From Lysobacter sp. HDW10 (GTDB lineage: Bacteria; Pseudomonadota; Gammaproteobacteria; Xanthomonadales; Xanthomonadaceae), in contig NZ_CP049864.1 in NCBI RefSeq assembly GCF_011300685.1, positions 1,418,885 through 1,482,884 of the forward strand: 64,000 bases of DNA. The letters are read 5' to 3'. Positions 4,290 through 42,610 of the stretch are shown one piece after another. The first letter of the stretch is position 1; every line of letters starts with the position of its first letter. The position numbers and the translations under genes were made by a program. The notes beneath the pieces are model-generated. The model did no database searches, was not told the origin of the DNA, and saw only the letters and a program-made list of their open reading frames with translations.

Positions 4290-4907
4290 GACATCACTGG
4301 CGTTGTCTTTGATGGCATTGAACGCATCAATGATCTGACCCGACAAAACAAATGCCGCAATGATCAAGGCAAGTCCGACGCACCAAGAGACAATCATCAA
4401 GCCACCGTCGCGCTCGATCATTGCCAATGCAAACAGCACTAGCGTTAATCCGAACAGGTAGTTAGTGCCCGGAATGGGCAGTGCCAGCAGCACCGCGAGA
4501 AACAGCAAGATCAGGCCGGTGAAGCGAAAGGTAATGCTGTTCTCGAAAATCCAATCCGCGCGCGGCCGAATGAGGCGATGCACGGGCCTGAAAATGCGGC
4601 TGAGTTGTGCATGGACTTTCGCCAGCGCACTCCGCTTCGGGCCCTTCGACAACAAGCGCTTTGGAAGCCAAGGTTCATGACGGCCGACGATCATTTGCAG
4701 CGCGAGGAGCGCAACCAATGGGCCTGAGAGCGCACCACCGACTGGAATGGGGATGAAGGCTGGCAGGGTAAGCACGAACAAAATCATGCCGAAACCGCTT
4801 TCCTCGACTTCATCAATGATTTGATGCATCGTGATGTGCGATTCGGGATCGCCTTGCGCCAATCGACCCACCATGCCGAGCAATCCGGTGTCTTTGTCAG
4901 ACTGCAT
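4269..4907 (-). CDS. ExoD family membrane protein
   Basis: This 212-aa integral membrane protein belongs to the ExoD family, named after a Rhizobium gene required for exopolysaccharide synthesis; the biochemical role is unsettled. The family pattern is visible: an N-terminal cytosolic helix (residues 1-38), the hydrophobic segment GFGMILFVLTLPAFIPIPVG, a basic central loop, then three C-terminal hydrophobic segments containing the PIPGTNYLFG repeat-like motif. It follows the CNNM-CBS gene on the same strand and is probably co-transcribed with it. Its start codon lies in the inner copy of a 25-bp tandem duplication; the outer ATG is out of frame. The 3' end overlaps trmJ by 21 bp. Confidence 0.85.
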   Translation of the reverse strand: MQSDKDTGLLGMVGRLAQGDPESHITMHQIIDEVEESGFGMILFVLTLPAFIPIPVGGALSGPLVALLALQMIVGRHEPWLPKRLLSKGPKRSALAKVHAQLSRIFRPVHRLIRPRADWIFENSITFRFTGLILLFLAVLLALPIPGTNYLFGLTLVLFALAMIERDGGLMIVSWCVGLALIIAAFVLSGQIIDAFNAIKDNASDVLHRIFV

Positions 4908-32992: not shown

Positions 32993-34201
32993 TTATTCTG
33001 GCGTCAATCGAGCGCCCGCTTTAAACGTCGCAGCACACAATCGTCCGCCCAACCAATAGGCCAGTTCCGCCGGATGATGCGCACGCCAACAGGCGAAATC
33101 AGCACGCATCCCCTCGACCAATCTGCCGCGGTCGTTCAAGCCCAACGCCGATGCTGCATTGACCGTCGCACCCCGCAACACTTCTTCAGGTGTCATCTTG
33201 AAGTGCGTACATGCCAATTGCATTGCTTGCCTGAGTGAACGCAGGGGCGATGTGCCAGGATTCAAATCGGTCGCAATGGCCATCGGTACTTTGTGTTTAC
33301 GCAATAGATCGATCGGCGGCAACTTCGTTTCACGCAATACGTGGAAGGCACCCGGCAGCAACACGGCAACAGTGCCCGCTTCTTTCATGGCGAGAACACC
33401 GCTTTCAGACGTGTGTTCGATATGGTCTGCAGAAAGGGCGTTGTACTTTGCCGCCAATGCCGCGCCATTGCCGTCGCTGAGCTGGTCTGCGTGCAGTTTT
33501 ACCGGTAAACCCAAGGTACGCGCGGCCGACAACATGCGCTCGCCTTGCGCTGTGGTGAATCCAATACGTTCGACAAACGCATCGACAGCATCAATCAAGC
33601 CTTCGGCGTGCAGTTCGAGCATCCAGCTGATGGCGGCTTCAATGTAGTCATCTCCGCGCCCGGTATACGCTTCAGGCAGCGCGTGCGCAGCTAAAAATGT
33701 TGTGCGAACGGAAACACCCGTTTGCTTCGCGATCTTGCGCGCCACTTGCAACATCTTGCGTTCGTTGTTCAAATCCAAGCCATAGCCGGATTTGATTTCC
33801 AATGTCGTCACGCCATCGGCGATCAAGTCATACACGCGTGGCAAAGACTGTTCGAGCAGCTCTTCTTCCGAGGCCGCATGGACAGCATTGACGGAAGAGA
33901 CGATACCGCCGCCTGCACGTGCGACTTCTTCGTACGTCGCGCCTTTCAAGCGAAGCTCGAATTCATTAGCACGATTGGACGCAAAAACGGCGTGGGTATG
34001 GCAGTCAATTAGGCCGGGCGTGATCAGACCATTGAATTCAATCTGCCGCACCGCAAATTGTGCGCTATCAGGCAAGGCGTCTCGCGGCCCCACATAGACG
34101 ATGCGGCCGTCTTTCCACGCCAACGCGCTGTTTTCGATACGACCAAAGCCTTCGTCATTTGCGAAGGTGACCAAGGTTGCGCCAACGATTACGCCATCCA
34201 T
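32993..34201 (-). CDS. hutI: Imidazolonepropionase
   Basis: This amidohydrolase (402 aa) of histidine catabolism opens 4-imidazolone-5-propionate to N-formimino-L-glutamate. The metal site is intact: HTH in IDCHTHAVF, His in VKLHADQLSDGNG, His in DHIEHTSESG, and Asp in IATDLNPGTSP. The start at 34201 (MDGVIVGATLVTF) has GGTGAG upstream; the frame continues further but into hutF. It is divergent from hutF with only 37 bp between the start codons, so both promoters must overlap coding sequence. Confidence 0.95.
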   Translation of the reverse strand: MDGVIVGATLVTFANDEGFGRIENSALAWKDGRIVYVGPRDALPDSAQFAVRQIEFNGLITPGLIDCHTHAVFASNRANEFELRLKGATYEEVARAGGGIVSSVNAVHAASEEELLEQSLPRVYDLIADGVTTLEIKSGYGLDLNNERKMLQVARKIAKQTGVSVRTTFLAAHALPEAYTGRGDDYIEAAISWMLELHAEGLIDAVDAFVERIGFTTAQGERMLSAARTLGLPVKLHADQLSDGNGAALAAKYNALSADHIEHTSESGVLAMKEAGTVAVLLPGAFHVLRETKLPPIDLLRKHKVPMAIATDLNPGTSPLRSLRQAMQLACTHFKMTPEEVLRGATVNAASALGLNDRGRLVEGMRADFACWRAHHPAELAYWLGGRLCAATFKAGARLTPE

Positions 34202-34238
34202 TCTGCAACTCACCCCTTGCTGCGGCACAATTGACCGG

Positions 34239-35483
34239 ATGATGACATACCCGAGCCCTGTCAAGGCATTGCCAAACGGTGATTGGTCGCTTCCCGGCAT
34301 TGCCAACCTCCATTCCCACGCCTTCCAGCGCGCCATGGCCGGTCTGGCCGAGCACCAAACCGACCCTGCGGATTCGTTCTGGACTTGGCGTGAGGTGATG
34401 TATGGCTTGGCCCAGCGTTTCACCCCAGAGCACCTGCATGCAGTCGCGAGCCAGTTGTACGTGGAAATGCTCGAGGCGGGCTATACGCATGTCTGCGAGT
34501 TCCACTACTTGCACCATCAAGCCGATGGCACGCCCTATCCAAACGCCGCGGCCATGTCCGAAGTCTTGATTCAGGCGGCTCGTGAAACAGGCATCGGCAT
34601 CACCTTGCTGCCCGTCTTATATATGCAAGGCGGTTTTGATGGACGTGACTTGGATACGCGTCAACGTCGATTCGGTCATCACGTCGATCACTATTTGAAT
34701 CTTCTGCAGCAGTTGCGCGTGCACGAAGATGCGCAGGTCAAGATTGGGTGTGCGCTGCATAGCCTTCGCGCCGTGCCTGAGTCTGCCATCCGCGATGTCG
34801 TCAGTGCTTTGCCGGGCGATAGCCCGATCCATATCCACATTGCTGAGCAATTGCCTGAAGTCGAAGAGTGCGTTGCGATTCGCGGTGCGCGTCCGGTGGC
34901 ATGGCTGTTGGACCATCACGAGGTCAACGCACGCTGGACACTCGTGCACGCCACGCATATGGACGCAGCGGAAGTAGGGCGCGTCGCTGCTTCAGGCGCT
35001 ACCGTCGCAATTTGCACGACGACCGAAGGCAATCTGGGCGATGGCCTGTTTCCGTTTGGTGCCTATGCCGCTGCCGGGGGCGCTTGGGGCGTCGGTTCTG
35101 ATTCACATATTTCAGTGTCACCCGTCGAAGAATTGCGCTGGTTGGAATATGGCCAGCGTCTGATCACCCATCGTCGAAATGTGGCGAGCGACGCGCAGAA
35201 CGCCCACACGGGGCTCAACCTCCTCAGGGCCACCTACCAAAGCGCGCCGAATGCTACCGGCGTGTCCAGCCCTGACGCTCAACTCATCTTGGCGGGCGAC
35301 GCACCGATCATGGCGGCGGCGAGCCTTGAAAACGTGCCCGAGCGCTGGATCTTCTCAGGCAATGTCCCGATCGTCCGAGAGGTGGTCGTGCGCGGACGCC
35401 GTTGGGTGGCGCAGGGGCGGCATGTCGATCACGATGCCGTGGCGGGGCGGTTCAGGCGCACGATGCAGGCATTGCTGGGCTGA
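34239..35483 (+). CDS. hutF: Formimidoylglutamate deiminase, shortened beta-sandwich
   Basis: This amidohydrolase converts N-formimino-glutamate to N-formyl-glutamate and ammonia in the five-step hut pathway. Catalytic elements are present: LPGIANLHSHAFQRAMAGLAE (HxH, residues about 19-39), LHSLRAV, HIHIAEQ, LVHATH and GVGSDSHISVSPVEELRW. At 414 aa it is shorter than typical HutF (about 450). Only 18 residues precede LPG, against roughly 48 in Pseudomonas HutF. The C-terminal GxxADLLVLD strand is reduced to AQLILAGDAP. The in-frame upstream part (34101-34238) does not resemble the missing segment. ATG 34239 or 34242 may be used. Confidence 0.88.
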   Translation: MMTYPSPVKALPNGDWSLPGIANLHSHAFQRAMAGLAEHQTDPADSFWTWREVMYGLAQRFTPEHLHAVASQLYVEMLEAGYTHVCEFHYLHHQADGTPYPNAAAMSEVLIQAARETGIGITLLPVLYMQGGFDGRDLDTRQRRFGHHVDHYLNLLQQLRVHEDAQVKIGCALHSLRAVPESAIRDVVSALPGDSPIHIHIAEQLPEVEECVAIRGARPVAWLLDHHEVNARWTLVHATHMDAAEVGRVAASGATVAICTTTEGNLGDGLFPFGAYAAAGGAWGVGSDSHISVSPVEELRWLEYGQRLITHRRNVASDAQNAHTGLNLLRATYQSAPNATGVSSPDAQLILAGDAPIMAAASLENVPERWIFSGNVPIVREVVVRGRRWVAQGRHVDHDAVAGRFRRTMQALLG

Positions 35484-35523
35484 AACCTTGGGCGTTGGTT
35501 CACAAGCTGGGCCGCAAAGTCGG

Positions 35524-35536
35524 TATCATAGGCGCA
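35524..35536 (+). promoter_or_regulatory. Putative -10 element of the arg operon
   Basis: TATCAT (35524-35529) places +1 at A35536, which is the A of the leader ORF start codon. TTCACA at 35499-35504 is a weak -35 with 19-bp spacing. The identical 13 bases occur before the rhomboid gene. Confidence 0.5.
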
Positions 35537-35625
35537 TGCGTACCGTGAGTTTCCATTCCTTTGCTTGTTCCGCTGCCATGGCCAGCGGCATGACCTCGCG
35601 CGCCCGTACCCGCTTGCCCGACTGA
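35536..35625 (+). CDS. Putative arginine leader peptide, 29 aa
   Basis: A 29-codon ORF reads MRTVSFHSFACSAAMASG, then MTSRARTRLPD and stop. Three Arg codons (35599, 35605, 35611) lie within five codons, just before the end. It probably starts at the first transcribed base, so it would be translated from a leaderless mRNA. Its stop is 27 nt before the 5' arm of the intrinsic terminator in front of argF'. Position, length, clustered codons for the operon's own end product and the downstream hairpins match the leader peptides of trp/his-type attenuators. The start context alone does not prove translation. Confidence 0.65.
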   Translation: MRTVSFHSFACSAAMASGMTSRARTRLPD

Positions 35626-35682
35626 CGCCGGCTCGCATTTCTGTATCTCTAGAAAAGCCCGGCTATCCAGCTGGGCTTTTTT
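35584..35682 (+). terminator. Attenuator: mutually exclusive hairpins and terminator before argF'
   Basis: Four segments can pair alternatively. Segment 1 (35584-35589, inside the leader ORF before the Arg codons) pairs with segment 2 (35627-35633, 1 nt after the stop codon). Segment 2 also pairs over 7 bp with segment 3 (35656-35663). The full 5' arm (35653-35664) pairs over 12 bp, with one G-U, with segment 4 (35669-35680), followed by six T: an intrinsic terminator 37 nt before argF'. A ribosome stalled at Arg codons frees segment 2 to form the antiterminator; one at the stop codon covers it, so the terminator forms. Confidence 0.7.
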
Positions 35683-35719
35683 GTTTCCGTCTTTTTCTTT
35701 CAAGTTTGCCAAGAATCCT

Positions 35720-36724
35720 ATGAAGCATTTCCTCAACACCCAAGATTGGACACGTCCTGAACTCGACGCTGTACTGCGCCTTGCTGCGAACTACAAGCAA
35801 AACAAGCTCGGCGATGCGTTGAAAGGCAAAAGCGTTGCGCTGGTGTTCTTCAATCCATCGTTGCGTACGCGTACAAGCTTTGAGCTCGGCACCTTTCAGT
35901 TGGGCGGTCATGCTGTCGTGTTGTCGCCGGGCAAAGACGCGTGGCCGATTGAATTCGATTTCGGCACCGTCATGGATGGCGAAGCTGAAGAGCACATCGC
36001 AGAAGTCGCGCGTGTTTTGGGTCGCTATGCCGATTTGATTGGTGTTCGTGCGTTCCCGAAATTCGTCGATTGGGCGCAAGACCGCGAAGACCGCATTTTG
36101 AAGGGCTTTGCCACGTATGCCGGCGTGCCGGTCATCAATATGGAAACGATCACGCATCCCTGCCAGGAACTCGCGCACGTGATGGCGCTTCAGTCTCACT
36201 TTGGCACCGAGGATTTACGCGGGAAAAAGTACGTGCTGACATGGACGTATCACCCCAAAGCCTTGAATACGGCCGTCGCGAATTCGGCGCTGACGATTGC
36301 AACGCGCATGGGCATGGATGTCACCTTGTTGTGTCCGACCCCTGACTACATTCTCGACCCGCGCTACATGGATTGGGCTGCGCAAAACTCAGCAGAGAAC
36401 GGCGGCGCCCTCAGCGTGAGCCACGACATCGAATCCGCGTACGCCGGTGCGGATGTCGTCTACGCGAAAAGTTGGGGCGCCTTGCCTTACTTCGGCCAGT
36501 GGCAAGACGAAAAACCGATTCGTGATCAATACAAACACTTCATCGTCGATGAGGCCAAAATGGCGCTCACCAATGGTGGCGTGTTCTCGCATTGCTTGCC
36601 TTTGCGACGCAATGTCAAAGCGACCGATGCAGTGATGGATTCTCCTGCATGTATCGCCATCAATGAAGCCGAAAATCGCCTTCACGTGCAAAAAGCCGTG
36701 ATGTCCACCCTGATCTCGCAATAA
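35720..36724 (+). CDS. argF': N-acetylornithine carbamoyltransferase
   Basis: This enzyme (334 aa) carbamoylates N-acetyl-L-ornithine instead of ornithine, the variant route described for Xanthomonas. Carbamoyl-phosphate motif SLRTRTSFELGTFQLGG is present. The long insert VVLSPGKDAWPIEFDFGTVMDGEAEEH is characteristic of the acetylornithine type. NMETITHPCQELAHVMAL holds the HPxQ-like motif and HCLPLRRN the C-terminal motif. The start at 35720 (MKHFLNTQDWTRPEL) lies downstream of the attenuator terminator; its ribosome site is weak. It is the first structural gene of the arg operon. Confidence 0.94.
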   Translation: MKHFLNTQDWTRPELDAVLRLAANYKQNKLGDALKGKSVALVFFNPSLRTRTSFELGTFQLGGHAVVLSPGKDAWPIEFDFGTVMDGEAEEHIAEVARVLGRYADLIGVRAFPKFVDWAQDREDRILKGFATYAGVPVINMETITHPCQELAHVMALQSHFGTEDLRGKKYVLTWTYHPKALNTAVANSALTIATRMGMDVTLLCPTPDYILDPRYMDWAAQNSAENGGALSVSHDIESAYAGADVVYAKSWGALPYFGQWQDEKPIRDQYKHFIVDEAKMALTNGGVFSHCLPLRRNVKATDAVMDSPACIAINEAENRLHVQKAVMSTLISQ

Positions 36725-36734
36725 GGATTTTTAA

Positions 36735-37949
36735 ATGTCACTCCATGATTCCAAAGACATTGTGCTCGCATTTTCCGGCGGGCTGGACACCAGCTTTTGT
36801 GTGCCGTATTTGAAAGAGCGTGGTTGGAATGTCCACACCGTTTTTGCAGACACCGGTGGTGTCGATGCGGAAGAACGCGCGTCCATTGAACAACGCGCCC
36901 AAGAGTTGGGTGTGGCGAGCCACATCACCATAGATGGTGGCCCCGCGATTTGGGAAGGTTTCGTCAAGCCCTTCGTATGGGCCGGTGAGGCGTATCAAGA
37001 TCAATACCCGTTGTTGGTGTCAGATCGCTATTTGATCGTTGATGCGGCCTTGGCACGCGCCCACGCTTTGGGCACCAATGCCATCGCACACGGTTGCACG
37101 GGCATGGGCAATGACCAAGTGCGTTTTGACTTGGCGGTGAAGTCGAGTGGCGACTACAGAATCGTGGCACCGATTCGTGAAATCCAGAAAGAGCACACGC
37201 AAACGCGCGCCTACGAGCAGGCCTATCTTGAAGCGCGCGGATTTAGCGTCAGCACGAAACAACAGCACTACACCATCAATGAAAATCTGCTTGGCGTCAC
37301 CATGTCGGGGGGTGAAATCGATGAGTGGAAAGCACCCGGCGCGAAAGCACGCGGCTGGTGCAAATCACGCGCCGAATGGCCGGCAGAAGGCCTGGACGTG
37401 CGCTTGAAGTTCACTCAAGGCGAAGCCGTCGCGATCAATGGCGAGGCCATGGCTGGCGACAAGCTGTTGCAAACGCTCAACCGGGTGTTTGCTGACTATG
37501 GTGTTGGGCGCGGTGTGTATACCGGCGACACCACCATCGGTCTGAAGGGTCGCATTGTCTATGAAGCACCCGGCCTCGTTGCTTTGCTAACGGCACATCG
37601 CGCACTCGAAGAGGCCGTGTTGAGCAAGCAACAAAATCGCTTCAAGCCAGAACTTGCGCGTAAATGGGTTGAGTTGGTCTATGAGGGTTTCTTCCATGAC
37701 CCGCTCAAGACCGACATCGAGCACTTCCTTCAATCCAGTCAACGCATGGTCAATGGCGAAGTCGTGCTGCGTACCGAAGGTGCACGCGTCGACGCGGTTG
37801 AGGTGGTTTCGCCGCATCTTCTGAACTCGAAGGGTGCGACCTATGCGCAGAGTGCAGATTGGGGCGTAGAAGAGGCAGAGGGCTTTATTAAATTGTTCGG
37901 CATGAGCAGCACGCTGTGGGCCGAAGTCAATGCGGGATCACACGGCTAA
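36735..37949 (+). CDS. argG: Argininosuccinate synthase
   Basis: This enzyme (404 aa) joins citrulline and aspartate with ATP hydrolysis to AMP. The N-terminal PP-loop [19 protein letters not shown], the [13 protein letters not shown] segment and the [21 protein letters not shown] region are visible. It lies 10 bp after argF', and its TAA stop overlaps the argE start (TAATG), implying coupled translation. The length is normal for the family's shorter bacterial form. Confidence 0.94.
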
Positions 37950-39031
37950 TGGACCTGCTTTCGCATTGCCTGTCGCATCTGCGTGCTCTGGTTGCCTTTG
38001 ATACGCGCAATCCGCCACGACAGATCGATGAGGCAGGCATTTTCGCCTATCTGCGCTCGCAGCTCACGGGCTTTGATGTTGAGGTGCAAGATCTCGGCGC
38101 AGGTGCTGTGTACTTGTACGCCAAACGTGGCACGCCAAAAGTGCTGTTCAACGTCCATGTGGACACCGTGCCCGATTCCGCTGCATGGCTGAACGATCCG
38201 TTTGCGCTTGAAGTGACCGCAGATCGCGCCATTGGTTTAGGTGCGTGTGACATCAAAGGGGCTGCAGCAGCCCTGTTGACCGCGGTGCAGCAGACCGAAG
38301 GGGATGTGGCCTTGTTGTTCAGTAGCGATGAAGAGGCGAACGATGCCCGGTGCATCGCTCACTTCTTGCAACGAGGCGAGTCATTCGATGCCGTTTTGGT
38401 GGCCGAACCGACGAAGTGTGAGGCAGTGGCTGTGCATCGCGGCATTTCATCCGTACGCGTCGCGTTTACCGGCGAAGCGGGGCACGCATCCAATGCGAAC
38501 AATCCGAGCGCGGTGCATAAGGCAGTGCGCTGGGCTGCGGAAAGCTTGGAGTGGGTTGCTTCGATGGCCGACGAAACCTTCGCGGGTTTGCAGGGCAGTC
38601 GCTTCAATATCGGCAAGATGGAAGGCGGCATCAAAGGCAATGTCATTGCGCCGTCAGCAGAGCTTCGCTTCGGATTCCGGCCTTTGCCATCGCAAAGCAT
38701 GGATGGCATGCATGCACAGCTCCGTGCCTTCACGGGCGGAGACGCTGAGTACGAAGAGCTTTTCCGCGGACCTTCCTTGCCATCAGGTAAAGACAGCGAC
38801 GCACGCCGCTTACGCGCAGAGGCCCTCGCACACGCATTTGAATTACCGCTGGGCGCCCCGGTCGATTTTTGGACAGAGGCATCACTCTTCTCGCAAGCAG
38901 GCTTCGACACCTTGGTGTTCGGCCCCGGCAATATCGCCCAAGCCCACAGTGCCGACGAATGGGTCGCACTCTCTGATCTATCCACCTATACGCAACACGT
39001 CGTACGCATCATCGGAGCACAACAGGCATGA
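37949..39031 (+). CDS. argE: Acetylornithine/acetylcitrulline deacetylase
   Basis: This M20-family zinc amidohydrolase (360 aa) removes the acetyl group. Because the upstream carbamoyltransferase makes N-acetylcitrulline, that is the expected substrate here. Metal motifs: [32 protein letters not shown] and [10 protein letters not shown]. The dimerisation domain starts near [20 protein letters not shown]. The start ATG at 37949 overlaps the argG stop; the gene's stop overlaps argB as ATGA. Confidence 0.92.
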
Positions 39032-40374
39032 CGCCTTTGAATCATCAGACGGCGGTCCATGACCCGCAGACTCGGCAAACGATTGTCCGTTTGCTGTCGA
39101 GCATGGCCAGCGCGAAAGAAATTTCGCAATACCTCAAGCGCTATTCACAGTTAGAGGCGGCGCGATTCGCAGTCGTCAAAGTCGGTGGTGCAGTGCTGCG
39201 TGACGATCTCGAAGCTTTGTCGTCTTCCTTGGCGTTCTTGCAAGATGTCGGCCTGACACCCATTGTGATTCACGGTGCGGGCCCGCAGTTGGATGCGGCC
39301 CTCGCCGAAGTGGGGATCGAGAAGCAGACCAAAAACGGCCTGCGTGTAACCACGCCTGAAGTATTGTCGGTCGTGCGCAAAGTGCTGCACGCACAAAACT
39401 TTGCCTTGGTTGAAGATCTGCAAGCACGAGACGCACGCGCGACTTCCATTGTTTCGGGTGTATTTGAAGCGACCTTGATGGATCAAGACACCTATGGGTT
39501 GGTAGGCGAGGTGGTCGACGTCGAGCTGGGACCGATTCGCGCGAGCCTGAAAGCCGGCTCAATTCCGGTGCTCGCGTGCCTGGGTGAAACGGCGACAGGG
39601 CAAATCGTGAACATCAATGCCGACTTTGCCGCCAATGCACTGGTGGCCAAGCTTCAGCCTGACAAGATTGTGTTTCTCACTGAAACCGGCGGCCTGCTGA
39701 ATGCAGATGGCGACATCATCGATTCAATCAATCTCTCTTCGGAGTATGACGAGCTGATGGATGCTGCGTGGATCAATGGCGGCATGCGCGTCAAGATCCA
39801 ACAAATCAAAGCGCTATTGGACACCGTGCCTTTGTCGTCATCGGTTTCCATTACGCGTCCGTCTGAACTCGCCAAAGAGTTGTTCACGCATCGCGGCTCA
39901 GGCACGTTGGTACGCAAAGGCGAACGCGTCGTTTCAAGCATGCAGTGGGATGCGTTCGATCTACCGCGCTTACGGACGCTAATCGAGTCAGCATTCGGTC
40001 GAAAGCTCGCTTCCAACTATTTCAATGACACGCGTTTGCTAAAGGCTTACGTGAGTGAAAACTACCGCGCCGCGTTGATTCTTGCGGAAGCTCGTGACGG
40101 CGTGCCCTATCTCGACAAGTTCGCGGTGTTAGATGACGCGCAGGGCGAAGGTTTGGGTCGCGCTGTTTGGCACGTCATGCGCAGTGAAACGCCGACACTC
40201 TATTGGCGCTCACGACGCTCGAATCCGGTCAACGCGTTCTATGAGAGCGAATCTGACGGCAGCTATAAGCGCGATCCGTGGACGGCGTTTTGGTACGGGA
40301 TCGATGCGTTCTCGAAAATCGAACTGCTTGTGGAAGACGCGCTTTCGCGTCCGCCCACATTGGAGGCAGCATGA
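39028..40374 (+). CDS. argB: Bifunctional N-acetylglutamate kinase/synthase
   Basis: This fused enzyme (448 aa) catalyses the first two steps of arginine synthesis. The amino-acid-kinase domain (about 30-290) has [39 protein letters not shown] and LTETGGLL. The C-terminal GNAT/DUF619 acetyltransferase domain (about 300-440) has [21 protein letters not shown] and [16 protein letters not shown]. This arrangement is typical of Xanthomonadales and resembles vertebrate NAGS. It has 4-bp ATGA overlaps with argE before and argC after. Confidence 0.95.
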
Positions 40375-41324
40375 CGTTCAAAGTGGGTTTGATCGGCGCC
40401 CGTGGACATGTTGGCGAAGCATTGATCCGCATCATCGATACGCATCCCGCTCTGTCCCTTGGATTCGTTTCCTCGCGTGAACGTACGGGTGAACTGCTTT
40501 CAGCCCATATCTCGGGCCTGAGTGAAGACCTCACCTATTCGAATGTGCCGTTTGCGGCACTGGGGCAACATGCGGTGGATGTTTTTGTACTCGCATTGCC
40601 AAATGGGAAAGCAGCCGAATGTGTTGAGGTGATTGCGCGTGAGCGGCCAGACGCCTGTGTGATTGATCTCTCTGCGGACTATCGCTTTGATGCGGACTGG
40701 TACTACGGATTACCCGAGCTCACGCGCGCGCAAGGGCAGGGCGTCCGTCGAATCAGCAATCCGGGCTGTTATGCCAGTGCGATGCAACTTGCGATCGCGC
40801 CGATGAAAGACCACTTGGCGGGTCCCACGCAATGTTTCGGCGTTTCGGGGTATTCGGGTGCGGGGACTACGCCGAGCGATAAGAACGATCCGCAGAAGCT
40901 CGCGGACAACTTGATGCCCTATAGCCTGATCAATCATATTCATGAGCGCGAAGTGGCGCGCCATTGCGCACCCGTTGAATTTATTCCGCACGTAGCACCG
41001 CATTTTCGTGGCATTACCATGACCTGCAATCTGCATTTGTCGCGCAAGTTTGAGTTGGACGAAGTGCGTGATCTCTACCGCGCGGCGTATGTCAACGAGC
41101 CTCTCATTCGCGTCCAGAATGACGCGCCTTGGGTGAGTGAGATCGCAAGCAAGCATGGCGTTCAGTTGGGCGGTTTCAGCTTGGATGAAAGCGGACACCG
41201 TTTGGTGGTCGTCTCAGTCTTAGACAACCTGTTGAAAGGTGCGGCCACACAAGCCATTCAGAACATCAATATTGCGCTCGGCATGAATGAATTTGCGGGC
41301 ATCGATTTGGAGCGCGCGGTATGA
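40371..41324 (+). CDS. argC: N-acetyl-gamma-glutamyl-phosphate reductase
   Basis: This NADPH-dependent reductase (317 aa) makes N-acetylglutamate semialdehyde. The Rossmann start [18 protein letters not shown], the active-site Cys in [15 protein letters not shown] and the [14 protein letters not shown] stretch are visible. The C-terminal [13 protein letters not shown] region is conserved. Its start overlaps argB and its stop overlaps argH, both by ATGA. Confidence 0.95.
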
Positions 41325-42610
41325 GTACCTTGCTATGGCAGAAAGATGGCGTTGTTGTGGATGCTGCGATTCAAGCATTTCTCGCAGGAGATGACGTCAT
41401 TCTCGATCGTGAGTTCATTCGCTATGACATCACGGCAAGTCGCGCGCATGCTTCCGGCTTGCATAAGATTGGCGTACTGGATGCAGATGAGTGGGCGGCG
41501 ATCGATCGAGAATTGCAGCAGCTCGATCAAGATGTCGTCAGTGGTGCGTTCGTCCTCGATGCGCACTATGAAGACATGCATAGCGCCATCGAAGCACGTC
41601 TGATTGATCGATTGGCGGAGACGGGCAAGAAAATTCACACCGGTCGCAGCCGTAATGATCAGGTGCTGGTGGCCACGCGACTGTGGTTGAAAGCCCAGTT
41701 GCTCGCATGTCAGCAACACTGCACAGCGATAGCGCAGGTGGCTTTGGCGCGTGCCGCTCAAGATCGGGATGTGGCGATTCCCGGCTATACCCATTTGCAG
41801 CGCGCCATGGTGTCTTCGGGCTTGATGTGGTGGTCTGCTTGGGCAGAAGCGTTCATCGACAATGCGGAGCGTTTGCGTGCGACGGCCGCGTGGCTGGATT
41901 CAAATCCACTCGGTACGGCCGCAGGGTATGGCGTCAATATGGCGCTGGATCGCGCCCATGTCACTGAGGCCTTGGGCTTTGCGCGCATGCAGGTTTCGCC
42001 CATCTATGCGCAGCTCTCGCGTGGCAAGTTTGAAATCGCGGCCATTGAAGCGGTGTGCAGTGCCTTGTTGGATGTGCGTCGTTTGGCTTGGGACTTGAGT
42101 TTGTTCACGACCGCCGAATTCGGATTCGTCAAACTGCCGGCGCACTATACGACCGGCAGCTCATTGATGCCGAATAAGCGCAATCCCGATGTCATTGAGC
42201 TACTTCGCGCTGCATACGCGCGCTGTGCGGCGTCGCGCACCGAGATCGAGCAATTGATGTCATTGCCTAGCGGCTATCACCGCGATTTGCAGTTTTCCAA
42301 GCCTGCGATCGTGAACGCCTTCAAACAGGGCGGAATGGCGCTTGCACTTGTGTCGCCGCTATTGGACGCATTGGTCTGGGTGCCAGAGAAGTTGAATGCG
42401 TCTTTGGATGCCTCGATGCATGCAACCGATTTGGCGTTGGAGCTCGCGCAGTCCGGCATGCCATTCCGCGATGCGTATCAAGCGGCGGCAAATCCGGAAC
42501 GATGGGAAACCCGGTCTGCTGAAAGCAGCTTGCAAGCACGCGTCTCGCCAGGTGGGCATGCAATGCCCATGCTTGAGATCTTAGCGGCGCGATTGCAAAC
42601 GCTTATTTGA
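41321..42610 (+). CDS. argH: Argininosuccinate lyase
   Basis: This lyase (429 aa) splits argininosuccinate into arginine and fumarate, the last step. Family motifs: [34 protein letters not shown] and the catalytic signature [13 protein letters not shown]. It is the last gene of the operon; in Xanthomonas relatives proB/proA often follow, here a convergent phosphodiesterase gene overlaps its end by 8 bp. Confidence 0.95.

Follow-up and report, generated by a model that had tools for sequence, protein, structure and literature searches.

How is an arginine-synthesis operon controlled in bacteria in which ArgR is not found? The question is raised by the region between hutF and argF' in the window, the whole stretch of 64,000 nucleotides analysed here. 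A member of an ArgR regulon would need the repressor in its genome. The source genome gave no match to Arg_repressor_C (PF02863), and ArgR (PF01316) was found in 0 of 149 genomes of the family and in 8 of 200 genomes of the order, all in one family (f11; f2-f12 are labels for families of the order, and L and G numbers denote loci and genomes). The control genomes for ArgR were positive as expected, with 8 and 9 of 14. From our comparison of sequences, we propose, with a probability of about 0.87, that this region works as a ribosome-mediated transcription attenuator responding to arginine, in place of ArgR. The gene identities of the argF'GEBCH operon and of hutF, as given in an earlier sequence-only reading of this DNA, are confirmed by protein-family matches, and the 29-codon ORF that it pointed out, with Arg codons 22, 24 and 26, is present. 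The features of the locus are collected in Table 1. The gene order argF'GEBCH is the same across 80 relatives, as far as the fetched loci extend.

Table 1. Features of the argF' leader locus, in positions of the window.
Feature	Position	Strand	Remarks
hutF	stop at 35483	+	Upstream neighbour of the leader, same direction as the hairpin
-35-like TTCACA	35499..35504	+	Weak; 19-nt spacer to the -10; poor match in the window
-10-like TATCAT	35524..35529	+	6 nt 5' of the leader ATG; predicts a leaderless leader ORF
Leader peptide ORF, MRTVSFHSFACSAAMASGMTSRARTRLPD and stop	35536..35625	+	29 codons; between hutF and argF'
Control codons	35599..35613	+	Arg22 CGC 35599-35601, Arg24 CGT 35605-35607, Arg26 CGC 35611-35613
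Segment 2 (antiterminator 5' half)	35627..35633	+	1 nt past the stop codon
Segment 3 = terminator 5' arm	35653..35664	+	35656-35663 pairs with segment 2 in the predicted antiterminator
Segment 4 = terminator 3' arm and T-run	35669..35682	+	3' arm 35669-35680; T-run ends at 35682
argF' (N-acetylornithine carbamoyltransferase)	35720..36724	+	ATG at 35720; NF003384, E 4.8e-184; first gene of the operon
argG, argE, argB (acetylglutamate kinase), argC, argH	36735..42610	+	Downstream of argF'

The proposed 12-bp intrinsic terminator before argF' was borne out by folding: the hairpin 35653-35664/35669-35680 has an energy of -18.1 kcal/mol (z -4.87, 0 of 200 shuffles as good) and a T-run to 35682. Segments 2 and 3 are able to pair in the window (duplex -11.6 kcal/mol), and the predicted fold of 35623-35664 (stop codon through terminator 5' arm) contains this antiterminator pairing, as had been proposed, at -15.0 kcal/mol (z -2.58, 3 of 200 shuffles as good); the 2:3 duplex alone is borderline against a shuffled spacer (p 0.06). 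The hairpin between segment 1 (35584-35589) and segment 2, also part of the sequence-only reading, is complementary on paper but absent from the predicted fold of 35536-35640, in which segment 1 pairs instead with an upstream GCCGCT. Neither 35536-35640 (z +1.45, 189 of 200 shuffles as good) nor the whole stretch 35524-35722 (z -0.46) folds better than shuffles. A simple pattern scan of the window listed neither the leader terminator nor a consensus promoter, and all Rfam families stayed below their thresholds there. A known riboswitch or leader was dismissed as a candidate; the three weak matches inspected as alignments, to rnk_pseudo, MicC (other strand) and Thr_leader, rest mainly on the terminator hairpin. 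The combination of an Arg-clustered ORF, a terminator and a 2:3 complement was searched for in 1.81 Mb of strand-bases (the window and 80 argF' loci); 79 of 81 sources have it at the argF' leader, and it turned up at 8 other places, none of them in the window.

The leader is conserved in Lysobacteraceae. An ORF with the core [M/T/I][T/A]SR[A/T]R, consensus (A)xGMTSRAR, lies upstream of argF' in all 80 named argF' loci, which are the best of a longer list and nearly all titled with Lysobacteraceae genera or higher ranks. A first core pattern missed L046 and L064 and misplaced L035 and L061, and a second pattern found all. A leader profile (A1), built from 44 leaders, matched 193 of 198 family genomes at E <= 1.5e-8, with adjacency to argF' checked only where DNA was read. 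The leader was not found in the remaining five (G007, G049, G056, G114 and G132; E 0.02 to 0.35), none of which has an N-acetylornithine carbamoyltransferase over the family cut-off. G007 (72%) and G114 (85%) are incomplete and two of the five are 99% complete; these five are possibly arginine auxotrophs. In total, the core pattern matches 113 sequences: the window, the 80 loci, 10 more family genomes and 22 from f2, f3 and f12; it is absent from the 18 leaders with unrelated peptides described below. Across the 85 distinct core sequences Arg22 and Arg24 are invariant, and Arg25 is present in most relatives. The proposal of three control Arg codons thus holds for Arg22 and Arg24, but not for Arg26, which is not conserved: a near-identical leader in a genome of the same genus (G149, locus L146) reads SRARTC, with Cys in place of the third Arg. 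The ORF, the Arg codons, the terminator and the placing of segment 2 were all found conserved when relatives in Lysobacteraceae were compared, which supports the arginine-attenuator reading.

The same comparison bears on the simplest alternative, in which the hairpin merely terminates hutF and the ORF is a chance occurrence. hutF does end 170 nt before the hairpin and runs in the same direction, but promoter-like boxes and the family-conserved ORF intervene, and only 3 of 80 relatives have a hutF homologue in the 3 kb upstream, against 80 of 80 for the leader. The leader is conserved with argF', not with hutF, and we reject this explanation as extremely improbable.

Beyond the family, the same core precedes argF' at 21 loci of f12, f2 and f3 (12, 3 and 6) and at the f3 locus L166. 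The leader profile matched 51 of 51 genomes of f12 at E <= 1.4e-7 (counted by eye), 3 of 3 of f2 at E <= 3.5e-6 and 7 of 10 of f3 at E <= 1.2e-7. In G199, the one of the three f3 genomes below the profile cut whose DNA upstream of argF' was read, the leader is present (L166). Twenty chosen upstream regions of argF' were read in this way: L166 (f3), L167 (f5), two each from f4, f6 and f8, nine from f7 and three from f9. All 18 regions from f4, f6, f7, f8 and f9 contain an Arg-clustered ORF that encodes an unrelated peptide, with runs such as RRRR, RRLRRP or LRRRRR, and the single f5 region, L167, has no such leader. Between leader ORF and argF' our script found a terminator in 130 of 131 leaders, including 17 of the 18 unrelated ones; it missed that of L169, which is visible by eye. 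The 2:3 duplex of the unrelated leaders is -11.7 kcal/mol or better in 13 of 17 measured, and weaker, at -7.9 to -9.9 kcal/mol, in the three f9 leaders and L173. Elsewhere in the class (321 genomes), the leader profile found no match at E <= 0.001 besides four members of the family. Weak profile matches in f4, f8, f9 and f11 (L129-L137) have no argF' beside them and were taken as chance. Because leaders with unrelated peptides keep Arg clusters and mostly also the terminator and 2:3 pairing, the Arg codons and, for the most part, the predicted RNA switch are common to these families, and the MTSRAR peptide is confined to a part of the order. The proposed attenuator would supply a mechanism for arginine control in a large bacterial group where ArgR was not found.

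The attenuators of the trp, his, leu and thr operons of enterobacteria combine a leader ORF rich in codons for the product, mutually exclusive antiterminator and terminator hairpins, and a stop codon placed so that the ribosome covers segment 2. By comparison of sequences, the argF' region is equipped with its ORF and Arg codons, the terminator, the complementarity and placing of segments 2 and 3, and the linkage to argF', and ArgR was not found. As in attenuators of the trp/his type, an Arg-clustered leader ORF stands before the matching biosynthetic operon, and an intrinsic terminator lies between the leader and the first gene. Exclusive 2:3 and 3:4 pairings with a ribosome-placed segment 2 are predicted as well, on condition of kinetic control, and this prediction is weaker with footprint-only masking and in f3, f4 and f9. 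The argF' leader differs from the enterobacterial systems in being directed at arginine, in being probably leaderless or nearly so in the window's family, in lacking a supported 1:2 hairpin and in having a core peptide that is conserved beyond the control codons.

From these features we infer ribosome stalling, a switch and a response to arginine, which would proceed as follows. Transcription would start at or just before the leader ATG, leaving the ORF leaderless or nearly so, and the first ribosome would translate the leader. With ample charged tRNA-Arg, this ribosome would reach the stop codon and cover segment 2, and the terminator 3:4 would form before argF'. With Arg-tRNA in short supply, the ribosome would wait at Arg22 or Arg24 (and Arg25/26), leaving segment 2 free to pair with segment 3 before segment 4 exists, and the operon would be transcribed.

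The geometry of the leaders and their predicted folding are largely consistent with this scheme. Measured from the first base of the last clustered Arg codon, segment 2 begins at least 12 nt downstream in 125 of 130 leaders, and at 20 or 21 nt in 92. In 106 of 130 the end of segment 2 is at most 11 nt beyond the stop codon, counted from the first base of that codon; in 4 of those 106 it ends 13-20 nt before the stop, so that a terminating ribosome may already be past it. When everything as far as 12 nt past the A-site codon was masked and 2:3 was scored at a probability of at least 0.5 before segment 4, the pairing was predicted to form in 106 of 113 leaders with the ribosome at Arg22, in 113 of 113 at Arg24 and in 128 of 130 at the last Arg, where two f4 leaders fail, as against 14 of 130 at the stop codon, a number that drops to 3 when the edge is set at 16 nt. 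Five of these 14 belong to f3, so that segment 2 stays free even at the stop in 5 of 7 leaders of f3. In the window, the 2:3 probability under this masking is 1.0 at Arg22, Arg24 and Arg26 and 0 at the stop. For the complete RNA at equilibrium with a stalled ribosome, the terminator is preferred in nearly all leaders (median 1.0; window 0.99-1.0); because the terminator wins once segment 4 exists, the modelled antiterminator must act kinetically, by forming first. Masking only a 30-nt footprint gave a weaker switch, because the 5' part of the leader competes for segment 2: the 2:3 probability reached 0.5 in 73 of 130 leaders with the ribosome at the last Arg, in 59 with it at the first core Arg and in 12 with it at the stop. 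With no ribosome on the RNA, segment 2 is predicted to find a partner further upstream in 125 of 130 leaders. The stronger switch assumes that queued ribosomes would stop this competition.

Compared with dinucleotide-shuffled spacers, the 2:3 duplex reached p <= 0.05 in 19 of 34 non-redundant leaders and p <= 0.01 in 12 of 34 (median z -2.5). A variable 2:3 pair is T-A or C-G in 82 of 91 family leaders, with five G-U and four that misfit by motif, and is of the C-G type in 12 of 12 leaders of f12; L177 has GCCAGG/CCTGGC. In alignment A2, 77.4% of 2:3 positions are paired, against 73.5% when slid by +1, and 12 cells show a change in both partners, a number that none of 500 shuffles reached; this MAFFT alignment is one column out of register for some rows, which dilutes its pair counts, and the permutation was run on registered segments. 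It gave 802 of 20000 on 34 representatives, and 0 of 20000 on all 130 leaders, whose sequences are non-independent. Segments 2 and 3, among those for which the sequence-only reading had asked for compensatory changes, tend to change together, but the covariation is modest.

Promoter-like sequences precede the leader throughout the family. In all 81 cases (80 loci and the window), 6-10 nt separate the end of the best -10-like hexamer from the start of the leader, a tally that leans that way through the script's preference for starts with such promoters, although the fixed spacing is visible in the raw sequences. In all 80 relatives an extended TG is combined with a -35 of the TTG type at 17-18 nt, and in the window TATCAT is combined with the weak -35 at 19 nt. 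GAGGAT is the hexamer in 38 cases, and its GAGG is unlikely to be a Shine-Dalgarno sequence, because 43 of 81 have other hexamers and the box lies upstream of the mapped 5' end of Xoo5. The Rfam family RF02242, 'Xoo5 sRNA', matches the argF' leader in 8 of 10 relatives scanned (none in L009 and L018); in the window it scores 14.5 bits and does not reach the gathering cut-off of 50. At L015 the model covers 4731-4854 and the leader ATG is at 4733, so that model position 1 lies 2 nt before the ATG. According to the available part of the original report (PMC3039613), sRNA-Xoo5 precedes PXO_00353, named N-acetylornithine carbamoyltransferase; its 5' end in X. oryzae was mapped by 5' RACE, its published length is 124 nt, and it was described as an sRNA whose function was not determined there. 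Judging by the -10 box, the mapped 5' end would be the transcription start rather than a processed end. Because it falls 2 nt before the leader ATG, the leader ORF is probably leaderless in the window's family, and we infer the same for the window's own species. As a separate observation, the leaders of L018, L040, L051 and L076 have GTG starts 7-8 nt from a -10-like box and are predicted to be leaderless GTG starts. A scan of f12 gave no support for a leaderless start, and the claim is restricted to the window's family. In f12, a CATGAT box was seen by eye some 25-30 nt before the leader start (L109, L112, L115, L116 and L119), and this distance suggests a short 5' UTR rather than a leaderless ORF.

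By sequence comparison, then, RF02242 is the argF' leader of Xanthomonas and Stenotrophomonas, with an in-frame conserved peptide inside. Alternatively, the short RNA could be what Xoo5 was described as, a trans-acting sRNA, and the operon could be transcribed from a different promoter. Northern blots did reveal Xoo5, as bands of ~130 and ~100 nt in a pattern that shifts with growth phase (PMC3039613, as far as its available text goes), and the accessible part of a report on Sinorhizobium meliloti describes rnTrpL as an attenuator RNA able to act in trans (PMC7298713). The parts conserved here are instead the peptide frame, the Arg codons and the alternative hairpins, and we consider a purely trans-acting RNA quite unlikely; a trans role could be additional to attenuation. 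The cloned 3' end of Xoo5, as published in the text available, corresponds to L015:4854, 7 nt short of the hairpin (4861), and the Northern sizes are below the ~162 nt predicted for the terminated RNA; processing or another end must therefore be assumed. The attenuator reading would give this orphan Rfam 'sRNA' a cis role, and the type of RF02242 could be changed from sRNA gene to cis-regulatory leader.

Codon usage in the core is distinctive. At the control Arg positions of the 85 distinct cores (253 codons), CGC occurs 100 times, CGT 75 and CGA 78, and CGG, AGA and AGG are absent. CGA thus makes up 31% of the core, against 0.7% (9 of 1351) of the Arg codons in argF' of the 80 loci, where CGG, AGA and AGG account for 142. 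The CUA codons in the leu leader of E. coli are a comparable case of rare control codons in an attenuator. In the window, CGA is not very rare in the arg operon (16 of 141) and does not occur in the leader. The Arg that often precedes the core (position 14, Ala in the window) uses CGG freely (27 of 63). Among the 100 Arg codons of the 18 unrelated leaders, 31 are CGA (a raw count), and nine are CGG, AGA or AGG, at the argF' background rate (p 0.74). A single tRNA-Arg as the sensor was rejected: the core avoids CGG, AGA and AGG, but the unrelated leaders use them at background rate.

The core is also constrained as a peptide. For GMTSRAR, pN is 0.021 and pS 0.420 (pN/pS 0.05). The non-Arg residues of this core give a pN/pS ratio of 0.07 and the five codons upstream one of 0.80; pS is 0.39-0.42 in all three sets. 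Such conservation of the nascent chain at the amino acid level, as in arrest peptides, was found for the MTSRAR type only. By this measure conservation extends to the peptide and is not limited to the RNA or the Arg codons, a constraint for which a plain codon counter would have no need. The constancy of the core peptide while synonymous sites vary suggests that the nascent chain also matters for regulation. It might be a sensor in its own right, with AxGMTSRARR arresting or slowing the ribosome and an effector that is either charged tRNA-Arg or free arginine; the part of the peptide inside the exit tunnel would then matter as much as the Arg codons. The low pN/pS speaks for this, as does the location of the conserved residues, which we estimate to be ~10 residues or less from the peptidyl-transferase centre while Arg24/25 is decoded, and the control Arg count of 2-3 in MTSRAR-type leaders as against 3-7 in the 18 unrelated ones. 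On the other hand, f4 and f6-f9 are without such a peptide, and third bases in the core are partly near-fixed (CGA 77 of 83, TCG 80 of 85), so that the constraint may partly be on codon or RNA. We regard such a sensor as possible but rather doubtful; it could supplement attenuation and need not oppose it. Equally tentative is a combined view, somewhat short of even odds, in which arginine attenuation replaced ArgR in most of the families of the order that were read, and Lysobacteraceae and three further families swapped the Arg run for AxGMTSRARR, which would hold the ribosome at 2-3 Arg codons in a hybrid of codon counter and arrest peptide, leaderless in Lysobacteraceae. The attenuator reading also yields two naturally occurring designs of one switch, Arg-rich leaders of free sequence and a conserved-peptide leader with few Arg codons, which makes the contribution of the nascent chain directly testable.

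With ribosome-mediated attenuation as the preferred reading, arginine would join the amino acids whose synthesis operons appear governed by leader-peptide attenuation. Among the papers listed from the open-licence literature we found no attenuator for an arginine-synthesis operon in these bacteria, going by titles and the openings of abstracts, and the terms arginine, argF, argG and carbamoyl are absent from the main text of the terminator survey of Naville and Gautheret (PMC2965389). The sequence-only reading named no described ribosome-mediated Arg attenuator for proteobacteria, but an Arg-codon-sensing leader ORF is known there, with another mechanism and gene: orf34 of Salmonella speF works with mRNA structure, RNase G and Rho (PMC6386406, available part). 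Like the argF' leader, speF orf34/speFL of Salmonella and E. coli has consecutive Arg codons, at which the ribosome pauses without arginine (PMC6386406, PMC7815308; available parts), but it controls ornithine decarboxylase via Rho, structure at the RBS and RNase G, whereas the argF' leader precedes an arginine-synthesis operon and has an intrinsic terminator. Xoo5 occupies the identical place in Xanthomonas and Stenotrophomonas but was described as an sRNA in the accessible text (PMC3039613). The trpL leader of S. meliloti likewise has an ORF that starts at the transcript 5' end and a terminated RNA that is an sRNA, and is thus a published precedent for a leaderless leader ORF; it differs in serving tryptophan and trpE(G) (PMC7298713, available part). 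The carA leader of Pseudomonas also combines an arginine-linked operon, a leader peptide and proposed attenuation, but there, according to the portion available, attenuation is ascribed to pyrimidines and arginine acts at the transcriptional level (PMC4997734).

Further observations concern neighbouring genes and the family with ArgR. argB (39028-40371 of the window) matches the long-type NCBIfam acetylglutamate kinase models of ~440 positions (NF003386, 724.6 bits). hutI (minus strand) and hutF (plus strand) are divergent at 32993-35483, with an overlap of ~320 nt between their longest ORFs. As the match to hutI starts only at residue 95, the true hutI start is probably further downstream. 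Among the 200 genomes of the order, f11 (G207, G216, G224, G231, G237, G243, G255 and G261) is the only family with ArgR. The f11 matches to N-acetylornithine carbamoyltransferase are weaker (E 1e-105 to 1e-122), and for the leader f11 gave only profile matches at E >= 0.001, none of them convincing. Because of these three features, f11 may keep an older arginine control.
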